Part shown: piece by piece, positions 25,685 to 34,803 of the stretch | Layout of the letters: the number at the start of each line of letters is the position of its first letter | Numbering within the stretch: position 1 is the stretch's first letter | DNA from: Vogesella urethralis | GTDB taxonomy: Bacteria > Pseudomonadota > Gammaproteobacteria > Burkholderiales > Chromobacteriaceae | Length of the DNA stretch: 37,721 nucleotides | Assembly (NCBI RefSeq): GCF_007644045.2 | Contig: NZ_VMDW02000043.1 | Location: 1-37,721 of the forward strand | Reading direction: 5' to 3' | Translations under genes and position numbers: made by a program | The notes under the pieces: model-generated | Databases searched by the model: none | What the model was told of the DNA's origin: nothing | What the model saw: the letters and a program-made list of their open reading frames with translations, nothing else

Positions 25685-26014
25685 TCAGTTGGCGGGCTGA
25701 ATATCGGTGACCAGCATCTTGCCATCTTCATGGCTGACCATGAAACGGATTTTGTCACCGACCTTGACCTGATCCAGTAGTGCCTTGTCCTTGGCGGTAA
25801 ACACCATGGTCATGCCAGGCATGTCCATATGTACGATTGGACCGTGCTTGATGGTGATCTTGCCGGCGGATGGGTCGATCTTGCGGACCTCACCATCGGT
25901 CAGCATCGCCATATTGCTACTGGTGGTAGCAACCGGCGTCTGAGTGGCTTGGGCAAAGGGGCTCAGGGCGGTCAACCCCATGGCGGTGGCGAGAATCAGT
26001 GTGCGGATAGTCAT
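25685..26014 (-). CDS. CusF-like periplasmic copper-binding protein
   Basis: This 109-residue exported protein has a signal peptide (residues 1-23, PFAQATQT) and the CusF fold. His57 (IKHGP) and the pair Met68/Met70 (PGMTMVF) are kept, but the Trp that covers the metal in CusF is replaced by Met65 in HMDMPGMTMVF, and His62/Met63 are added. The site is thus more Met/His-rich than that of cusF at 12712, and may bind differently or also take Cu(II). It belongs to the same leftward operon as the cupredoxin and cytochrome. Confidence 0.88.
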   Translation of the reverse strand: MTIRTLILATAMGLTALSPFAQATQTPVATTSSNMAMLTDGEVRKIDPSAGKITIKHGPIVHMDMPGMTMVFTAKDKALLDQVKVGDKIRFMVSHEDGKMLVTDIQPAN

Positions 26015-26075: not shown

Positions 26076-26552
26076 TTATTTTTTGGCAACCTTGATCTGC
26101 CCCTTCATGCCGGCCTCGTAGTGGCCCGGGTGCAGGCAGGCGAAGTTAACAGTGCCGGCTTTGGAAAACTGCCAGATCACCTCGCCCTTGGCGCCTGGAG
26201 CCAGCGATACCTTGCTGGGCTCGTCGTGCTCCATGTCCGGAAATTTCTTCATCTGCTCGTAGTGTTCCAGCAATTCTTTTTCAGTGCCCAGACTGAACTC
26301 GTGTTTCACCTTGCCCAGGTTTTTCACCATGAAGCGGATGGTTTCGCCTTGCTTCACCGTGATCAGCGGCGCGGAGAAACGCATGTTGTCGGACATGTCT
26401 ACCTGAATGGTGCGGTTGACGTTGGTAGCCTTGCCCGGTAGGCCAATAGCGGATTCTTCATGGCCGCCGGCGTGGGTGCCACCGGCAAAGGCCGAGGTAA
26501 TGCCCAAGCTAGTTAGCAGGGTAATAGCGAGAAGGTGGTGGGTGGTTTTCAT
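26076..26552 (-). CDS. Cupredoxin (plastocyanin/azurin-like blue copper protein)
   Basis: This 158-residue exported protein has a signal peptide (residues 1-23, SAFAGG) and a His-rich mature start GGTHAGGHEES. The type 1 copper ligands are visible: His84 in KVKHEFSLG, Cys139, His144 and Met149 in FACLHPGHYEAGMKGQIKV. This is the usual H...C-x4-H-x4-M pattern. An extra helical insert (EKELLEHYEQMKKFPDMEHDEP) separates the first His from the Cys loop, as in the copper-cluster cupredoxin family. It probably shuttles electrons or holds Cu for the multicopper oxidase encoded just upstream. Confidence 0.92.
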   Translation of the reverse strand: MKTTHHLLAITLLTSLGITSAFAGGTHAGGHEESAIGLPGKATNVNRTIQVDMSDNMRFSAPLITVKQGETIRFMVKNLGKVKHEFSLGTEKELLEHYEQMKKFPDMEHDEPSKVSLAPGAKGEVIWQFSKAGTVNFACLHPGHYEAGMKGQIKVAKK

Positions 26553-26575: not shown

Positions 26576-27970
26576 TTAATGCTGTCCAGGGGTCATCCCC
26601 GGTTTTTTGGCTTTGACCGTGGTCGTGGTAGCAGTCGGGTTGGCCGCAGCTTGCTGGCGCGGCGCAGTCGGCAGGTCACCGCTGTACTCGTATGCGACGG
26701 TACCAGCTGGATGCTGGTACCAACCCGGATCCTTGTAGTTACCGGCGGGCTGGTCCTTGCGCACCTTCAGCACGCTGAACATGCCACCCATTTCCAGTGG
26801 GCCGAAAGGTCCCTGCCCGGTCATCATCGGTGCGGTGTTGTCGGGGATCGGCATTTCCATTTCACCCATGTCAGCCATGCCACGCTCACCCATCAGCATG
26901 TAGTCTGGTGCTACTTTCTGGATCTTCTGCACCAGACCACGGTGATCGACGCCGATCATGGTCGGCACATCGTGGCCCATGGCATTCATGGTGTGGTGGC
27001 TCTTATGGCAATGAATCGCCCAGTCGCCTTCTTCGTCAGCAATGAACTCCAGCTGTCGCATCTGGCCGACCGCCACATCGGTGGTGACCTCGTGCCAGCG
27101 GGTGGATTTCGGTGTTGGGCCGCCATCGGTACCGGTGACCAGAAACTCATGACCATGCAGGTGGATCGGGTGGTTGGTCATGGTCAGGTTGCCGACCCGG
27201 ATGCGCACCTTGTCGTTCAACCGCACATTCAGCGAGTCGATACCCGGGAAGATGCGGCTGTTCCAGGCCCAGATGTTGAAATCGGTCATGGTGTTGACCT
27301 TGGGCGTCTTGCTGCCAGGCTCCACGTCGAAGGCGTTGAGCAGGAAGCAGAAGTCACGATCCACCTCATCAATCAGTGGGTGCTTTCCCTTGGGGTGGGT
27401 TACCCAGAAGCCGTGCATACCCATCGCCATCTGCACCATTTCGTCGGCATGTGGGTGATACATGAAGGTGCCAGGACGACGCGCCATGAATTCATAAACG
27501 AAGGTTTTGCCGGGCTTGATGCTGCGCTGGGTCAGACCGGAAACACCATCCATGCCACTGGGCAGGCGCTGGCCATGCCAGTGGATACTGGTATGTTCCG
27601 GCAGCTTGTTGGTGACGAAGATGCGCACGCGGTCGCCTTCCACCACCTCGATGGTCGGACCCGGGCTCTGGCCGTTGTAACCCCACAGTTGTGCAGTAAA
27701 GCCCGGCGCCATCTCGCGCTCCACCGGTTCGGCTACCAGATGGAATTCCTTGACGCCGTTGTTCATGCGCCACGGCAAGGTCCAGCCGTTCAGGGTGACC
27801 ACCGGGTTGTATGGGCGGCCGGTATTCGGGATCAGCGGCGGTGCCGTTTCCACCGAGGTCTGGATCACCGGTTCCGGCAAGGCTGCCAGCGCCGAACGAG
27901 CCACGGTGGCTCCGACGACCGCGGTGGCGGCACCGGCAACGAATTGGCGACGGGATTGATCGATATTCAT
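26576..27970 (-). CDS. Multicopper oxidase, Tat-exported (second copy type)
   Basis: This 464-residue oxidase starts with a Tat signal (MNIDQSRRQFVAGAATAVVG). The copper motifs are SIHWHGQRLP, FMYHPHADE, NHPIHLHGHEFLVTG and AIHCHKSHHTMNAMG. The last motif is HCHxxxHxxxxM-like, as expected for type 1 and type 3 ligands. It differs clearly from the CueO-like oxidase at 15423 in length and in a C-terminal extension with Met-rich MADMGEMEMPIPDN and a Pro/Thr/Lys tail. Periplasmic Cu(I) oxidation is the likely role; substrate is inferred from context. It starts 11 bases after the tolC-like stop. Confidence 0.92.
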   Translation of the reverse strand: MNIDQSRRQFVAGAATAVVGATVARSALAALPEPVIQTSVETAPPLIPNTGRPYNPVVTLNGWTLPWRMNNGVKEFHLVAEPVEREMAPGFTAQLWGYNGQSPGPTIEVVEGDRVRIFVTNKLPEHTSIHWHGQRLPSGMDGVSGLTQRSIKPGKTFVYEFMARRPGTFMYHPHADEMVQMAMGMHGFWVTHPKGKHPLIDEVDRDFCFLLNAFDVEPGSKTPKVNTMTDFNIWAWNSRIFPGIDSLNVRLNDKVRIRVGNLTMTNHPIHLHGHEFLVTGTDGGPTPKSTRWHEVTTDVAVGQMRQLEFIADEEGDWAIHCHKSHHTMNAMGHDVPTMIGVDHRGLVQKIQKVAPDYMLMGERGMADMGEMEMPIPDNTAPMMTGQGPFGPLEMGGMFSVLKVRKDQPAGNYKDPGWYQHPAGTVAYEYSGDLPTAPRQQAAANPTATTTTVKAKKPGMTPGQH

Positions 27971-27981
27971 GGATTACCCTT

Positions 27982-29067
27982 TCAGTGGCCAGCAGCGGCA
28001 GGGCTATCGCCGCCACCTGCTGCCAGAGAAACAAAACTTTCCGGAACATGCCCCAGCATCACTAATTGCAAATCGGCTTCCGCCAACCAAAAGTCCCGCA
28101 AGGCATTGATCGCATCTACCTGGGCTAATGCACGGGCACGAGACTCTGCCAGTAACTCCCACGTATTCATAAGCATGCCGTTGTAGCGCAGTACGGTTTC
28201 GTCGTAGATGAACTGTCTCAGTTTAAGAACCTGCTGCTGACTATCCTTGGCCAGGGTATAGGCTGTGCGATAAGCGCTGTATGCCAGTTCGGCATTGGCA
28301 CGCATTGCAATTTGCTCACCTCGCGACAGAGTGGCTGCCACATTATTCAGACGAGCTTGTACCTCCTGCTCGGATTGAATGCTTGCTGGCAAGGGAGGCA
28401 GGGCTGCGGGTAAGGCTAATGTCTGTGGCGTACTACGGTTCCACTGCTGCAAGGATTTGAGAACTGCAGCACGGCTTTGCAGGGAGGCGTACTGACTGCG
28501 CTGCCATTGCTGTAGAGAAGCAAGACGGGATAGTTGCTGCTGGGCATCACGCAGTTTGCTCCAGTTACCCGCCTGGGCAAGCCGGGCGCTAAGCTCTGCC
28601 CCGGCTTCATCGGCCTGCATAGCTTCTTTCTGGGCGGGCAAGCTTTGTTCAACAGCAATCGCGGCCAAGACGGATTTACGCGTGGCATGCGCAATACCAA
28701 TGACTTCATCGACATCATCGATCTTGCGTAACTTCGAAAGAGATACTGCTTGCCATTGTCCGCTTGCAATCAACCCCGTTTCCGTCCGCCCCAATTGGGA
28801 GAGTGGTTTAGCCAGATCAGGATGCGCTTGCCATGCAAGGTACACCGCATCATCAATACTCTTTAACGACAGAGAGGCTGGTTTGTTGTCACTCACATCA
28901 GTTGCAATTGGGTTTGCTTGCTCCCACTTCAGTACATCTGCATGCCCCCTAGGGAACTCTGCCACTTGTTGATTGGCTCGACGCCAGTCGGAGTCAGGCG
29001 TTTGTTGCGCCTGAGCAAAACTAGCCAGCAAAAATAAATGACTTGCAAATACTATCTTTTTGTTCAT
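27982..29067 (-). CDS. Short TolC-family outer-membrane protein
   Basis: This 361-residue exported protein has a signal peptide (MNKKIVFASHLFLLASFAQAQ) and a long helical, Gln/Ala-rich body as in outer-membrane efflux proteins. The ending VLRYNGMLMNTWELLAESRARALAQVDAINALRDFWLAEADLQ is characteristic of TolC-family members in copper clusters. It is shorter than CusC (414 residues), yet has a good GGAG ribosome site and an intact end, so it looks complete rather than broken. No adaptor or RND gene follows, so it may act alone or with the Cus pump. It is the first gene of the long leftward operon, with a CopR-like box about 110 bases upstream. Confidence 0.85.
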   Translation of the reverse strand: MNKKIVFASHLFLLASFAQAQQTPDSDWRRANQQVAEFPRGHADVLKWEQANPIATDVSDNKPASLSLKSIDDAVYLAWQAHPDLAKPLSQLGRTETGLIASGQWQAVSLSKLRKIDDVDEVIGIAHATRKSVLAAIAVEQSLPAQKEAMQADEAGAELSARLAQAGNWSKLRDAQQQLSRLASLQQWQRSQYASLQSRAAVLKSLQQWNRSTPQTLALPAALPPLPASIQSEQEVQARLNNVAATLSRGEQIAMRANAELAYSAYRTAYTLAKDSQQQVLKLRQFIYDETVLRYNGMLMNTWELLAESRARALAQVDAINALRDFWLAEADLQLVMLGHVPESFVSLAAGGGDSPAAAGH

Positions 29068-29175
29068 GTACCTGACTCCTTCCCTTTCTCCGCCATTTTG
29101 CTGTGATCAAAGTTTAGGTTATGAAATATGTATTGCAATACTGTCTTGCCAATAGGAACAGGAACCTGACAACTA

Positions 29176-29193
29176 GATTACAAATTTGTCATC
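29176..29193. promoter_or_regulatory. CopR/CusR-type box upstream of the long operon
   Basis: GATTACAAATTTGTCATC is an imperfect dyad like the CusR/CopR sites (AC-AAAT-TTGT type). It is matched at 17 of 18 bases by 29785-29802. It lies 109 bases before the tolC-like start and would let the copper two-component system induce the operon. Confidence 0.65.
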
Positions 29194-29320: not shown

Positions 29321-29593
29321 TTATGCGATGTAACGCGCATCGCCGGTTTCACGCTTGGCGATATAGCGGGCATCACCGGTCTCTCGCTTGGCGATATAAG
29401 GCGCATCACCGGTCTCACGCTTGGCAATGTAAGACGCATCACCGGTTTCACGCTTGGCGATATAGCGGGCATCACCGGTCTCACGCTTGGCGATGTAGCG
29501 AACATCTCCGATTTCACTTTGTGCAATTACCCCTGCTTGGGTGATACCGGTCAGCAGCGCAAAGATAGACGCAAGCATTAGCTGTTTTTTCAT
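29321..29593 (-). CDS. Secreted peptide of six 11-residue repeats
   Basis: This 90-residue product is not of a family I know. A signal peptide (MKKQLMLASIFALLTGITQA, then GVIA) is followed by six tandem 11-residue units filling the whole mature part: QSEIGDVRYIA, then KRETGDARYIA, and versions with S or P before YIA. The stop codon falls exactly at the end of unit six. The unit is highly charged (K, R, E, D, R) with one Tyr and no Cys, Met or His, so it is not a classical copper binder. AAAGGA precedes the ATG. It lies divergent from the copper regulator gene, with a CopR-like box between, so copper control is likely. A structural, assembly or stress role cannot be told from sequence. Confidence 0.75.
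   Translation of the reverse strand: MKKQLMLASIFALLTGITQAGVIAQSEIGDVRYIAKRETGDARYIAKRETGDASYIAKRETGDAPYIAKRETGDARYIAKRETGDARYIA
29324..29521 (-). repeat. Six tandem 33-bp repeats inside the secreted peptide gene
   Basis: Exactly 198 bases (6 x 33) encode the 11-residue units. Units 2-6 are near-identical in DNA and differ by a few bases; the first, next to the signal sequence, is most diverged. Such an array can gain or lose units by slippage without breaking the frame. Confidence 0.9.
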
Positions 29594-29784
29594 GGCTCAA
29601 TCCTTTTGAAAATTATTAATAAATTCGGCAAATAGGTTATAGGGCAACCCCATTTTTGTTTATGCGTGTGACGTAGTTTTTTATTGCCTGATAGTGTTTC
29701 TGCGTAATTTGGACAGAACATTGCTTTGTCAGGCTTTGTTGTCATCATTCTGGATGAACAAAGCAAACAGAAAGCTGACGTGCA

Positions 29785-29802
29785 GATTACAAATCTGTCA
29801 TC
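29785..29802. promoter_or_regulatory. CopR/CusR-type box between repeat peptide gene and regulator gene
   Basis: GATTACAAATCTGTCATC differs by one base from the box at 29176. It ends 57 bases before the regulator ATG (29860) and 192 bases upstream of the repeat peptide start, so it could serve autoregulation and the divergent gene. Confidence 0.65.
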
Positions 29803-29859: not shown

Positions 29860-30546
29860 ATGAAAATTTTGATCGTTGAAGATGAAGTTAAGACAGGTGA
29901 ATACCTGCGTCTTGGATTGAGTGAGGCGGGCTTTACCGCGGACTTGGCCCACGATGGGCTGGATGGACTGCACCTCGCGATGGAAGGCAACCATGACCTA
30001 TTGATCTTGGACGTGATGCTACCCAGCATGGATGGCTGGCAGGTTCTTACCCAACTGCGCCGGCAGCAGAAAACCATGCCGGTGCTATTCCTAACTGCGC
30101 GCGATCAAGTTGAAGATAGGGTGAAGGGACTGGAGCTGGGAGCAGATGACTACCTGGTCAAACCGTTCTCCTTTGCCGAGCTGTTGGCTCGGGTACGTAT
30201 TATCTTGCGCCGCGGACGAGGAACGGCGGAGGTTACAACCTTGCAGGTCGCCGACTTAGAGTTGGATCTGTTACGCCGCCGTGTTAGTCGTGATGGAAGA
30301 CGTATCACACTGACCGCCAAGGAATTTGGTCTGCTGGAGCTGCTGATGCGCCGCCAGGGCGAGGTGCTGCCGCGTTCGCTGATTGCCTCGCAGGTATGGG
30401 ACATGAACTTCGATAGCGACACCAATGTAATCGACGTGGCCATGCGCCGCCTGCGCGCCAAGGTCGACGACGACTTCGAACCCAAGCTCATCCACACCGT
30501 GCGCGGCATGGGCTACGTGCTGGAAGTGCCGGAGCCGGACGCATGA
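29860..30546 (+). CDS. copR: Copper response regulator CusR/CopR (complete copy 2)
   Basis: This 228-residue OmpR-family activator has a receiver ([20 protein letters not shown]) with acidic pair Glu7/Asp8, phosphorylated Asp51 in [14 protein letters not shown], and Lys in [11 protein letters not shown] winged-helix DNA-binding domain ends in [16 protein letters not shown]. The ATG at 29860 has AAGGAG; an upstream in-frame ATG at 29824 adds 12 unconserved residues. From codon 13 to about codon 195 its DNA is nearly identical to the truncated copy at 18446-19094. After that its base composition shifts to the GC-rich style of the kinase gene downstream, so the gene looks like a mosaic. It overlaps the kinase gene by 4 bases. 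copR is used for CusR/CopR-type regulators generally. Confidence 0.93.
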
Positions 30547-31928
30547 GGCAGCGCCTTTCCCTGACGGCACGACTGACCCTGCTCTACGCGCTGGTTTCCG
30601 TGCTGCTGCTGGCCGGGCTGGGCGTGCTGGTCGGCGTGATGATGGACCGGCACTTTGCCGAACAGGATGCCGACGACCTGCGCGACAAGCTCGGACTGAT
30701 CCGGGAGGTGATGAGCACTTCGCCCGATATCGCCACGCTGGCCGAGCGGCTGGACGACGTGGTGCACAATCACCGCGACCTGTACGTGCAATTGCAGCGG
30801 CTGGGCTACCCGGTCTACGCCTCCCGATCGCCGGCGGCGTTCCACTTCCCCGCCGTCGATGCGGCCGCGAACCGGCAGATGGTGAGCTGGCGGCATGCCG
30901 GGGCCAACTATCACGGCATGTGCAGCAGCGGCCGGCTGGCCGACGGTGGCCGCACCGAGCTGACCATCTGCGCGGCGATCGACACCGGCCGGCACGAGCA
31001 CTTCATGCAGATGATAGGCCGGTCACTGGCGGTCTACATCCTGCTGTCGGCACTGCTGGGCGGCGTGCTGGCCTGGTGGGTGGCGCACAACGGCCTGGCA
31101 CCGCTGCGGGCGATGAAGGCCCGGGCGCAGGCCATTACCGGGCAGCAGCTGGACACCCAGATGCCGGTGGCGTCGGTGCCACCGGAAATGGCCGATCTGG
31201 CCGAATCGCTGAACGCCATGCTGCGCCGGCTGCAGGCAGATTTCCGCAAGCTGTCGGAGTTCTCCTCCGACCTCGCGCACGAGCTGCGCACGCCGATCAG
31301 CAACCTGCTGACCGAAACGCAGGTCGCCATCGCCCAACCGCGCTCCGCCGACGAATACCGCGACATCCTGGCCTCCAATGCCGAGGAGTTCCAGCGGCTG
31401 GCGCGCACGGTATCGGACATGCTGTTCCTGGCCAAGGCCGAGCACGGGCTGGTGCTGCCCAGCCGGGAGCAGATTGCCATCGAGGACGAGGTGGCGGCGC
31501 TGCTGGAGTTCTACGATGCGCTGGCGGAAGAGAAAGCCATCCGCCTGCAGCAGACGGGGCACGGACGGATGCTGGGTGACCGGCTGATGCTGCGCCGCGC
31601 GCTCAGCAACCTGCTGTCCAACGCGCTGCGCCATACGCCGACAGGCGGCGTGGTCAGCATCAGCCTGCAGCAGGACGGCAATATGACCGCCGTCAGTATC
31701 TGCAACCCCGGCCCCGCCATCCCGGCGGAGCAGCTGCCCCGGCTGTTCGACCGCTTCTACCGCGCCGACCCCGCCCGCGTGGCGGGCGAGTCGGATGGCG
31801 CCGGGCTGGGACTGGCCATTACCCGCTCCATTGTCGAAGTGCACGGCGGCCGCATCAGCGTCACCTCGGTCGATGACGCCACCTGCTTCACGCTGTGGTT
31901 TCCTGCTCAGCCGCCGCTTGCGGGCTGA
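30543..31928 (+). CDS. copS: Copper-sensing histidine kinase CusS/CopS (copy 2)
   Basis: This 461-residue kinase has the same domain order as the copy at 17064: two spans, a periplasmic sensor region with [12 protein letters not shown] and [14 protein letters not shown]-box [13 protein letters not shown] (His246) and G box [13 protein letters not shown]. It would sense periplasmic Cu(I)/Ag(I) and phosphorylate the regulator encoded just upstream. The protein is highly similar to copy 1, but the DNA is far more GC-rich, so the two copies diverged for long or came by separate transfers. Its last 22 bases overlap the convergent cueR gene. Pairing with the chimeric regulator is expected to work because the receiver is near-identical in both copies. 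Confidence 0.93.
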
Positions 31929-32350
31929 TCCGTAGCCGCGTGGTGAGCACACTGCCCGCCATGCCCTTCGGCCAGACCGTGCAGGATGGGGCAGTCGGGG
32001 CGGCTATCCCCGCTGCAGGCATTGGCCAGGGTCTGCAGCGTGTCTCGCATGTCACTGAGTGCCCGGATACGCTCGTCCAGCTCGGCGATGTGGCTTGCGG
32101 CCAACCTTTTTACATCGGCACTGGCGCGCCCGGTGTCCTGCCATAGCGACAGCAGGATGCGGATCTGCTCCAGCGGAAAACCCAGGCTGCGCGCCTGGCG
32201 GATAAAGCGCAGCAGGTGCACCTCCCGCTCGCTGTACTGGCGGTAACCGGACTGGGTGCGCTGCCCGGGCGCGATCAGGCCGATGCTTTCGTAGTGCCGG
32301 ACCATCTTGGCGGAAACGCCGCTGGCCGCGGCGGCCTGACCGATATTCAT
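31907..32350 (-). CDS. cueR: MerR-family Cu(I)-responsive regulator CueR
   Basis: This 147-residue activator has the MerR winged helix (MNIGQAAAASGVSAKMVRHYESIGL) and a metal loop with Cys112 and Cys120 in CSGDSRPDCPIL, exactly the two-Cys +1-ion site of CueR. A further Cys-His-His (QCAHH) follows, as in other CueR proteins. An AAAGGAG precedes the ATG. It lies downstream of copA on the same strand, 62 bases apart, and should activate copA and copZ through the operators at 34836 and 35202. Confident for Cu(I)/Ag(I)/Au(I) sensing. Confidence 0.95.
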   Translation of the reverse strand: MNIGQAAAASGVSAKMVRHYESIGLIAPGQRTQSGYRQYSEREVHLLRFIRQARSLGFPLEQIRILLSLWQDTGRASADVKRLAASHIAELDERIRALSDMRDTLQTLANACSGDSRPDCPILHGLAEGHGGQCAHHAATDQPASGG

Positions 32351-32412: not shown

Positions 32413-34803
32413 TCAATGCTGTTTGGCCGGTCGCCAGCGGCGCAGCAGCAGCGCATTGGAGACCACGCTGACGCTGGACAGCGCCATGGCCGCCCCGGCG
32501 ACGATGGGGCTGAGCATGCCCAGTGCCGCCAACGGAATGCCCACCAGGTTAAAGATAAATGCCCAGAACAGGTTCTGCCGGATCTTGCCGTAAGTCAGAC
32601 GGGAGATGGCAATCGCCTGCGCCACCAGCGTGGGGTCGCCACGCATCAGCGTCACCCCGGCCGCCTGCATGGCGACATCGGTGCCGGTACCCATCGCCAT
32701 GCCGACATCGGCCGCGGCCAGTGCCGGCGCATCGTTGACCCCGTCCCCCACCATGGCGACACGGCGGCCGTCCTGACGCAGCCGGGCAATGTGGCCGGCC
32801 TTGTCGCCGGGCAACACCTCGGCAATCACCTCGTCGATGCCCAGCGCGTCCGCCACCTGGCGCGCGGCCGCCCGGTTGTCGCCGGAGATCATCACGCTGC
32901 GGATACCCAGCGTATGCAACTGGTCGATGGCGGTCGCAGCGGCCGGCTTGACGCTGTCGCCGAAGGACAGCATGCCCAGCAGTTTGCCGTCGCCGGCACG
33001 CGCCAGCCAGGACACGGTGCGCCCCAGCAATTCCTGTTGTTGCTGATCGCTGCGCAGCGAAGACAGCTCGATGCCCTGCTCCTGCATCAGCCGCTGGTTA
33101 CCCAGCAGGTAGCCGATGCCATCGATGTCGCCACGCAGGCCACGGCCGGGCAGCGCCTGCAGTCCGGACAGCTTGCCTGGCGCGGGCGTGGTCACCGCAT
33201 TGAGCACCGCCTGCGCCAGCGGGTGCTCGCTGCCCTGCTGCAGGCTGGCGGCCAGTTGCAGCAATGTTTGCTCGTCACCGTTGGCCGCAACGGCATGCAT
33301 CAGCCTGGGCTTGCCCTCGGTCAGGGTGCCGGTCTTGTCGAAGGCGACGACCAGCACGCCGTGTGCCAGCTCCAGTGCCTCCGCATCCTTGATCAGGATG
33401 CCGTGCCGGGCGGCCACGCCGGTGCCGGCCATGATGGCGGTCGGCGTCGCCAGGCCCAGCGCACAGGGACAGGCGATCACCAGCACGGCGACGGCATTGA
33501 GTATCGCCTGTTCGACGTCCCCGCTGAACCACCACCAGCCGGCCAGCGTCAGCACGGCGATCAGCAGCACCACCGGCACGAACACCGCGCTGACCCGGTC
33601 CACCAGGCGCTGCACCGGCGCCTTGCCGGCCTGGGCATCCTCCACCATGCGGATGATGCGGGCCAGGGTGCTGTCTTCCCCCAGCGCCCGGGTTTCCACC
33701 AGCAGCAAGCCGTCGTGGTTGATGGCGCCACCAGTCACCTGGTCCCCGGCCTGCTTGCTGACCGGCAGGCTCTCGCCGGTCAGCATGGACTCGTCCAGCT
33801 GGCTGCTGCCTTCGACGATGACCCCATCGACGGCCACACGTTCACCCGGACGTACCACCACCAGGTCGCCCAGCTGCACCTGCTGCAATGGCAGGTCGAC
33901 ATCGACGCCATCGCGGCGCACGCGAGCCGTGGCCGGACGCAGCGCCTGCAGCGCCCGGATCGCCGCCGTGGTCTGCTGCTTGGCGCGCGCCTCCAGCCAC
34001 TTACCCAGCAGCACCAGGGTAATCACCACTGCCGATGCCTCGAAATACAGATGGCCACCACCATGACCGGCATGCAACCACCACTGGTACAGCGACAGCC
34101 CGTAGGCCGCGCTGGTGCCGATGGCCACCAGCAGGTCCATATTGCCGCTACGGGCCTGCAGCGCCTTCCAGCCGGCGCGATAGAAGCGTGCCCCCAGCCA
34201 GAACTGCACCGGGGTGGCCAGCAGGAACTGCAGCCAGGCCGGCAGCATCCAGTGCTCGCCGACCAGCCCGCCCAGCATCGGCAGCACCAGCGGCAGCGAC
34301 AGCAGGGCCGCCACCGCCACCGGCCACCATGGCGTCGCATGGGGACGTGGTGCGGAGGCGGCATCCTCGCGAAGGCTCGCCCGGTAGCCGGCTTTGGTCA
34401 CGGCCGCCAGCAGCAGTTGGCTATCGCTGCCGCCGCGCACGGTGACGCGGGCCGTCTCGGTGGCCAGGTTGACACTGGCGGCCGTGACGCCGGGAACGGC
34501 CAGCAGGGCTTTTTCCACGCGGCTGACACAGCTGGCGCAGGTCATCCCCTGGATGCTCAGGTTCACGCTATCGCCTCCGACCTGATAGCCGGCGCGCTCG
34601 ATGGCGGCGTGGGCGTCGGTCAGGGTGAAATCGGCGCCGGTTTCCAGCGTCACCGATTCGGTGGCCAGGTTGACGTTGGCCGCATGAATGCCGGGCACCT
34701 TGTGCAGGGCCTTTTCCACGCGCAAGACACAGCTGGCACAGGTCATACCCAGCACCGGAAAGCGCAGGGTCTGGCTGGCAGCGGGAGAAGTGAAACGGGA
34801 CAT
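32413..34803 (-). CDS. copA: Cu(I)-exporting P1B-type ATPase CopA with two HMA domains
   Basis: This 796-residue inner-membrane pump moves Cu(I) out of the cytoplasm. Two N-terminal HMA domains carry GMTCASC motifs (Cys22/Cys25 and Cys89/Cys92). The transport motif CPC is in [15 protein letters not shown], the phosphorylated Asp in [10 protein letters not shown], the ATP-binding HP in GSEHPLAQ, and the hinge GDGVNDAP. The ending [22 protein letters not shown] is typical of CopA. Its promoter has a CueR-type operator. The long open reading on the opposite strand (32368-34878) is only a GC-driven shadow. Base composition is high and uniform with copS and copZ. Confidence 0.97.

Follow-up and report, generated by a model that had tools for sequence, protein, structure and literature searches.

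The window, i.e. the whole analyzed stretch of 37,721 nucleotides on contig NZ_VMDW02000043.1 of Vogesella urethralis, contains at 29321-29593, on the reverse strand, an ORF of 90 codons starting with ATG, preceded on the same strand by a probable ribosome-binding site, AAAAGGATT (29599-29607), in a region which is alike in V. margarita. Its product begins with a probable signal peptide, MKKQLMLASIFALLTGITQA (codons at 29534-29593), placed by eye on account of a basic start, a hydrophobic core and TQA before the cleavage point, about 20 residues in all, and homologous to the signal peptides of the relatives described below. There follow the residues GVIA and six 11-residue units: a degenerate one, QSEIGDVRYIA (29489-29521), and five of the form KRETGDA[R/S/P]YIA (29324-29488), with R, S, P, R and R, in this order, at the variable place, and then the stop codon. 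The ORF has the coordinates given in the original prediction, which had described six units and a stop at a unit end; the 33-bp array was independently found by Tandem Repeats Finder, with scores of 242-297. The further claim that the mature protein contains nothing but repeats is right for the six units running to the stop, and fails for the four residues GVIA and, in part, for unit 1, identical to the consensus KRETGDARYIA at only 7 of 11 positions.

Cys, Met and His are absent from the mature part, as originally noticed. The protein is accordingly not a standard metal buffer, being devoid of such ligands and matching no family of copper-binding periplasmic proteins of the CusF, CopI, SilE or CopK type. 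No Pfam or NCBIfam family fits it, the best Pfam match, PGDYG, reaching 16 bits against a cut-off of 27 and the best NCBIfam match lying far under its cut-off, and no match was found among PDB sequences; its initial description as an exported-looking, undescribed repeat protein is thus upheld.

The gene lies within a copper island, again as predicted. On the forward strand copR, a heavy metal response regulator (29860-30546, TIGR01387 above cut-off), is followed by copS, the sensor kinase (30543-31928, TIGR01386 above cut-off), and, on the reverse strand, by cueR (31907-32350, TIGR02044 above cut-off) and the copper-translocating P-type ATPase CopA (32413-34803, TIGR01511 above cut-off). On the other side a copper operon, also on the reverse strand, starts with an exported-looking protein of 361 aa matched by no Pfam or NCBIfam family (27982-29067), and includes a multicopper oxidase (26576-27970, PF07732 and PF07731), a CopI-like cupredoxin (26076-26552, PF00127, with CopI models matching below cut-off) and a CusF-like copper-binding protein (25685-26014, PF11604). 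The 361-aa protein evolves fast, with 59-69% protein identity between clades against 94-95% for the adjoining multicopper oxidase.

CopR-type boxes and the place of the repeat gene

The CopR-like box announced between the repeat gene and copR was indeed identified, by pattern and comparison, at 29785-29802 (box 2), and a second one was found upstream of the copper operon, at 29176-29193 (box 1). Box 2, which also lies upstream of copR, carries behind it, towards the repeat gene, a conserved GTCAGnTTnnTGTT, the whole spanning 29766-29802; box 1 is followed by the same element (29157-29193). The pattern matches the window four times, i.e. two sites, each on both strands, against 0.02 matches expected in shuffles. 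In the upstream region of the repeat gene the predicted box core, TGACA-n5-GTAAT, is conserved in V. margarita, and it fits the P. aeruginosa CopR consensus, CTGACAn5GTAAT, as given in the accessible part of PMC11195947. Nine sites directed towards an operon or a repeat gene, three of which are near-identical orthologues, show ATGACAnATTTGTAATC and then GTCAGnTTnnTGTT at a constant distance.

With the 361-aa protein as a query, copper operons were detected in 7 of 61 genomes (E<=1e-20), all of Vogesella. Five of them are divergent from copR, with a single box in between and no repeat gene, ruling out that the gene is a part of every copper operon. In the other two, those of the window genome (G000) and of V. 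margarita (G006), the repeat gene lies between copR and the operon and has a box on each side, so that, seen from copR, it stands where the operon otherwise begins. About 190 bp separate box 2 from the start codon of the repeat gene (about 245 bp in V. margarita), and at such a distance it might control copR alone. The window copy is probably under CopR control and would then be induced by copper.

A family of repeat genes in Vogesella

The same genome contains, on another contig, a paralogue with 11 units of the form KRESGDA[P/A]YIA, located between an ABC-F gene, which we take to be EttA-like, and a LigB-type dioxygenase gene. A search with this paralogue (E<=1e-3) had matches in 13 of 61 genomes, corresponding to all 13 Vogesella genomes, one per species, and to none of the 48 other Chromobacteriaceae. 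Lack of any homologue with a conserved reading frame had been named at the outset as a finding that would speak against the gene; relatives keeping the frame are present in every Vogesella genome.

Fifteen complete arrays, each of 6 to 17 whole units, could be read, for a total of 175 units; those of G001, G010 and G011, cut by contig ends, were left out of the counts. Units are of three types: 11-mers (90 units), 12-mers of type RREGGDAPYMVA (56) and KIGDLEQPTNFA (29). The 11-mers are near-invariant for R at position 2 (89 of 90) and for E at position 3 and D at position 6 (90 of 90 each), KIGD-type units have no Tyr, and Cys and His are absent from all 15 mature proteins. All 15 arrays end exactly at a unit boundary. 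Two genomes, G012 (L068, 8555-10117) and G007 (L065, 9061-10284), feature two adjoining repeat genes with different units; in the G012c copy KRESSDNYFLA alternates with KRESGDSYNIA, forming a higher-order unit of 22 residues.

Outside the two copper islands the genes adjoining the repeat genes vary from locus to locus; a 313-residue frame just upstream of the G009 gene (L046) presumably resembles an IS5-type transposase. An Rfam search of three loci (L007, L066, L070) gave no match. The neighborhood of related repeats is a copper island in two genomes and something else for all other copies. The copper link, though real, concerns the copper-island copy in particular, and the view of the repeat protein as a copper component as such does not survive, the family being genus-wide and found outside copper loci, and the gene being absent from five of the seven copper operons. 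This also bears on the possibility that the protein is a weak copper buffer, acting through Glu, Asp and Tyr side chains, which the CopR-type box and the position within the island would favor. No Cys or His is available in any mature protein, nor Met in the window copy, the KIGD type does without Tyr, and the relatives reside outside copper loci: metal chelation by the repeat protein is unlikely, and we regard this form of it as very improbable.

Upstream of the non-copper copies a pair of TTCnAA-like motifs spaced 22 bp apart and a stretch resembling CTATAGTTAC were recognized by eye; they are absent from the copper copies. A 16-base pattern derived from this element, searched with up to 2 mismatches, gave 12 matches in the 13 genomes, as many as its reversed control, so that the evidence for the element lies in the position of the matches and not in their number. 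Merged into 10 sites, they fall in nine cases just upstream of repeat genes and in one within a frame resembling an O-antigen ligase; RREGG species have no match. A wider regulon is rejected, the pattern being no commoner than its control, and the common position of the putative element may derive from shared descent of the copies.

Searches were extended beyond the family Chromobacteriaceae. In the order-wide one (399 genomes, E<=1e-6), 8 genomes had matches, 6 of Vogesella and 2 others; in the class-wide one, performed with the RREGG protein on 369 genomes, matches were found in 2, G000 and one other. The three non-Vogesella matches (L063, L064, L092) look, by eye, like low-complexity stretches of unrelated frames. 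Nor was an ancestral repeat gene found beside ettA in sister genera: 26 non-Vogesella loci, among 30 taken from the 57 genomes with an ettA match (18 further non-Vogesella matches are outside this count), contain no tandem ORF with a signal peptide within flanks of 1.5 kb, from which genes 4-5 kb away from ettA, as in G007 and G012, would escape. One of the ettA loci (L123) features a weak 46-residue frame of period 18. No relative was found in phages, and 3 pattern matches in viral contigs yielded no confirmed one.

Plasmid matches were more abundant. The window protein matched 15 records (E<=1), including Paracoccus, Caedibacter and proteins of Streptomyces and others named pentapeptide; two Paracoccus matches span the whole query at 34% identity, and in one annotated Paracoccus record a pseudouridine synthase occupies the matched place, while another Paracoccus record carries no annotation. 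The RREGG and KIGD proteins matched 18 and 25 records, respectively, the best E among the matches listed being 2e-26 (Staphylococcus), and the best 15 in each set start beyond the signal peptide. Three of these were inspected: two run antisense to an annotated gene and one is a hypothetical protein of 281 aa of an S. epidermidis plasmid (L147, 300-1145), with repeats similar to those of the KIGDLEQPTNFA array (40% identity, E 2e-26). On the basis of the inspected records, plasmid matches are read as repeat-on-repeat similarity and not as family members. The proteins are not pentapeptide repeat proteins either, their period being 11 or 12 residues and the matches so named being weak. Similarly, G012c exceeds the Pfam cut-offs of Mucin-like (37.9 against 28.7 bits) and Pro_3_hydrox_C, and G008 those of APC_15aa and RinB; Mucin-like excepted, no single stretch passes alone, and all of these are taken as reflecting repeat composition.

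Judging from sequence, the repeat gene is a member of an undescribed family, found only in Vogesella in these searches. No such protein was encountered in a literature search carried out largely without subscription papers; exported tandem-repeat proteins are already known as a broad kind, while the family itself, the swapping of its units and its position behind a probable copper promoter seem to be undescribed.

Selection on the unit and turnover of the arrays

Variable columns of the 15 arrays fall on codon positions 1, 2 and 3 in 32, 26 and 113 cases, respectively; in the window array, 9 of 15 are third positions and pN/pS is 0.15. The excess at third positions (113 of 171) indicates that the unit peptide is under selection, although the corresponding binomial p of 3e-18 overstates the significance, orthologous arrays not being independent. 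In 14 of 15 arrays pN/pS ranges from 0.06 to 0.36; in the remaining one, that of G002, which has just two variable columns, it is 0.84. This pattern points to purifying selection on the unit peptide, while the number and the kind of units vary from array to array.

Codon usage was evaluated against 26 translation-region genes of the window genome, whose own values are 0.53-0.85. The codon adaptation index of the own-genome paralogue is 0.81, close to EF-Tu (0.85) and far from the mean of 22 other genes (0.46). Relative to random synonymous choice, 9 of 15 copies have z values above 4, and lower ones were obtained for G006cop (3.3), G008 (3.2), G007b (2.4), G002 (2.3), the window copy (1.3) and G012b (0.5); these values refer to a reference from one genome and are overstated to the extent that units copy one another. 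Many copies outside the copper island have a codon usage like that of ribosomal-protein genes, suggesting an abundant product for many, though not all, of them: the weak bias of the window copy, G012b, G002 and G007b indicates that abundance is not general. By all signs, the repeat genes are translated. That they make no functional protein, being DNA repeats left open by chance, would suit their restriction to one genus in these searches and the fact that the arrays can be read through in other frames as well; third-position bias, low pN/pS, the signal peptide and the codon bias of several copies make this the least credible of the readings considered.

Turnover is best seen at the ettA locus of G002 and G008, whose EttA DNA is 97% identical. 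Their arrays are unrelated, nine KRESGDAAYIA units in the former and twelve KIGDLEQPTNFA units in the latter, while about 300 bp of upstream DNA and the codons of the signal peptide are almost the same in both. After the stop, identity resumes in a piece of 43 bp (93%) and in a terminator-like one of 85 bp (94%), with about 190 bp more between the two in G002. At this one locus the alignments indicate that the unit was replaced wholesale, signal peptide and upstream DNA being kept. Upstream DNA and signal peptide codons (L066 and L078) are also better conserved than the neighboring dioxygenase gene. An ettA tree unites the RREGG species in a single supported group and places G002 among the KIGD species; two genomes of other genera sit beside G000, and the deeper branches were left unused.

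The copper copy of V. margarita is a mosaic, made of six 12-mers, a hybrid RREGGDARYIS and a final KRESGDARYIG. G000 and G006 share 94.5% of their multicopper oxidase DNA and 89.4% of ettA, G006 and G001 90.2% and 95.5%, respectively. From these identities and from the mosaic array, the island appears to have passed from one lineage to another: G006 has it in common with an 11-mer species, and in G006 it mainly carries the 12-mer of the resident clade. Conversion of the V. margarita copper array by the array of its own ettA locus is unsupported, its unit DNA being closer to G003 (0.88) than to its own (0.82).

Replacement of units with retention of the flanks, as in G002 and G008, and the V. 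margarita mosaic are what would be expected of a variable surface or decoy protein, its arrays being swapped as phages, predators or hosts recognize them. Conservation of the unit within arrays and clades is strong, though, and the two G006 arrays have the peptide RREGGDAPYMVA in common in spite of different DNA (0.82), both of which make such a role unlikely.

Possible function and comparison with known systems

The reading we rank first, while granting it somewhat less than an even chance, is that the family forms an abundant, near charge-neutral, disordered envelope polymer acting in bulk, whose window copy was recruited to the copper response. Copper would activate CopRS, and CopR would switch on the window copy; the product would reach the periplasm or beyond and, in what is the least certain step, stay intrinsically disordered, as a nearly neutral chain with one aromatic residue per unit. 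It would act as bulk material, forming a multivalent shield or matrix of the envelope, rather than by binding copper at defined sites. Constitutive copies would make the product abundant, and the copper copy would add more under copper stress.

Export, near-zero net charge, the single aromatic residue of each unit and the fact that the unit is under selection but free to vary in number are the reasons for preferring such a material over a chelator or an enzyme. Net charge per residue is -0.02 to +0.03 in 13 arrays and -0.09 in two KIGD arrays. On a charge-hydropathy plot, 14 of the 15 arrays are on the disordered side of the line, most only just, and disorder is predicted from composition only. 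Against it, the G003 array lies marginally on the ordered side, and the structure predicted for the window protein draws one long helix, at a mean pLDDT of 50, which makes the model uninformative and unfit for a fold search. Against the copper step stand the distance of box 2 and the five copper operons devoid of the gene.

Strict uniformity of the unit within each array, with one aromatic at a fixed place, the exact ends of all complete arrays and the prevalence, in the V. margarita copper copy, of its clade's unit type, as if matching were needed, would suit ordered self-assembly. Each unit would then contribute a strand (about xYIAKRE) and a turn (about SGDA), stacking into a fibre, a functional amyloid or a flat sheet, either within the envelope or beyond it. 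The missing confident fold, the high fraction of charged residues (0.25-0.39) and the fact that no accessory secretion or nucleator gene was recognized beside the loci looked at, in a partial annotation, place this reading second, as a possible but rather less probable one. The 12-residue and Pro-containing units of relatives would hardly favor one fixed short solenoid, initially suggested along with a polymer. Near-identical tandem peptides, almost all of which begin with a basic residue and close with Ala, and freely varying unit numbers also recall a multi-copy precursor, from which cleavage at unit borders (after Ala, before Lys or Arg) would free 11- or 12-mers, acting as signals or antimicrobial peptides. 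Spacers are missing, no processing or export gene was recognized nearby (again in a partial annotation), and two very different units at one locus of close relatives would mean a changed message; we consider this improbable, if marginally less so than the decoy.

More broadly, and with still less assurance, we tentatively suggest that the family represents a new kind of repeat polymer in bacteria. Its exported chains would consist of one short unit alone, which can give way wholesale to a quite different one at the same locus, with signal peptide and upstream DNA retained; the unit would tend to be of the host clade's type, even where the island arrived by horizontal transfer; and the chains could be placed under a stress regulator, here CopR, as ready-made envelope material. 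Exported proteins made of one short repeat alone are easily overlooked as low complexity. In Vogesella, selection at the protein level, change of unit number, wholesale replacement and capture by an apparent stress promoter are readable in 13 related genomes, which makes the family a comparative system for studying the origin of repeat proteins and what keeps them uniform.

Hydrophilins and group 3 LEA proteins are hydrophilic disordered chains, the latter with 11-residue repeats, thought to shield proteins under stress; hydrophilins are defined by more than 6% Gly and high hydrophilicity. The window protein has 9% Gly and a mean Kyte-Doolittle hydropathy of -1.01, while Gly is 0-5% in G007b, G012a, G012b and G012c, and hydropathy is only -0.53 to -0.85 in some other copies. 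The Vogesella family differs from both in its unit, in being exported, in the aromatic residue of each unit and in its 12-mer and Pro-containing variants. Curli-type functional amyloids and mussel-foot-type repeat proteins are exported chains with a structural role, built of short repeats in which aromatic or polar residues recur regularly; compared by description, they have units of other sequence and length, and no partner genes were recognized for the Vogesella family. Alleles of the Plasmodium S-antigen combine similar flanks with wholly different short repeat units. It is an antigen of a eukaryotic parasite, to our knowledge unrelated by sequence, whereas Vogesella units differ between species (one genome each).

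Bd0108 of Bdellovibrio, according to the accessible part of PMC4267844, is a small protein reported as intrinsically disordered, mentioned in connection with the periplasm and involved in a lifestyle switch; as far as that description goes, it is similar in its small size and in the disorder that is predicted for the Vogesella family, and differs in role. Pseudomonas has PtrA and further small periplasmic proteins controlled by CopR (PMC11195947, accessible part), which are likewise small, exported and members of the CopR regulon of a copper-resistant bacterium, a membership that is predicted for the Vogesella protein. By the same partial description, PtrA is not presented as a tandem repeat, and the Vogesella family, in contrast, is mostly found outside copper loci. 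A component of a copper response other than a chelator, a pump or an oxidase may be represented by this repeat protein.
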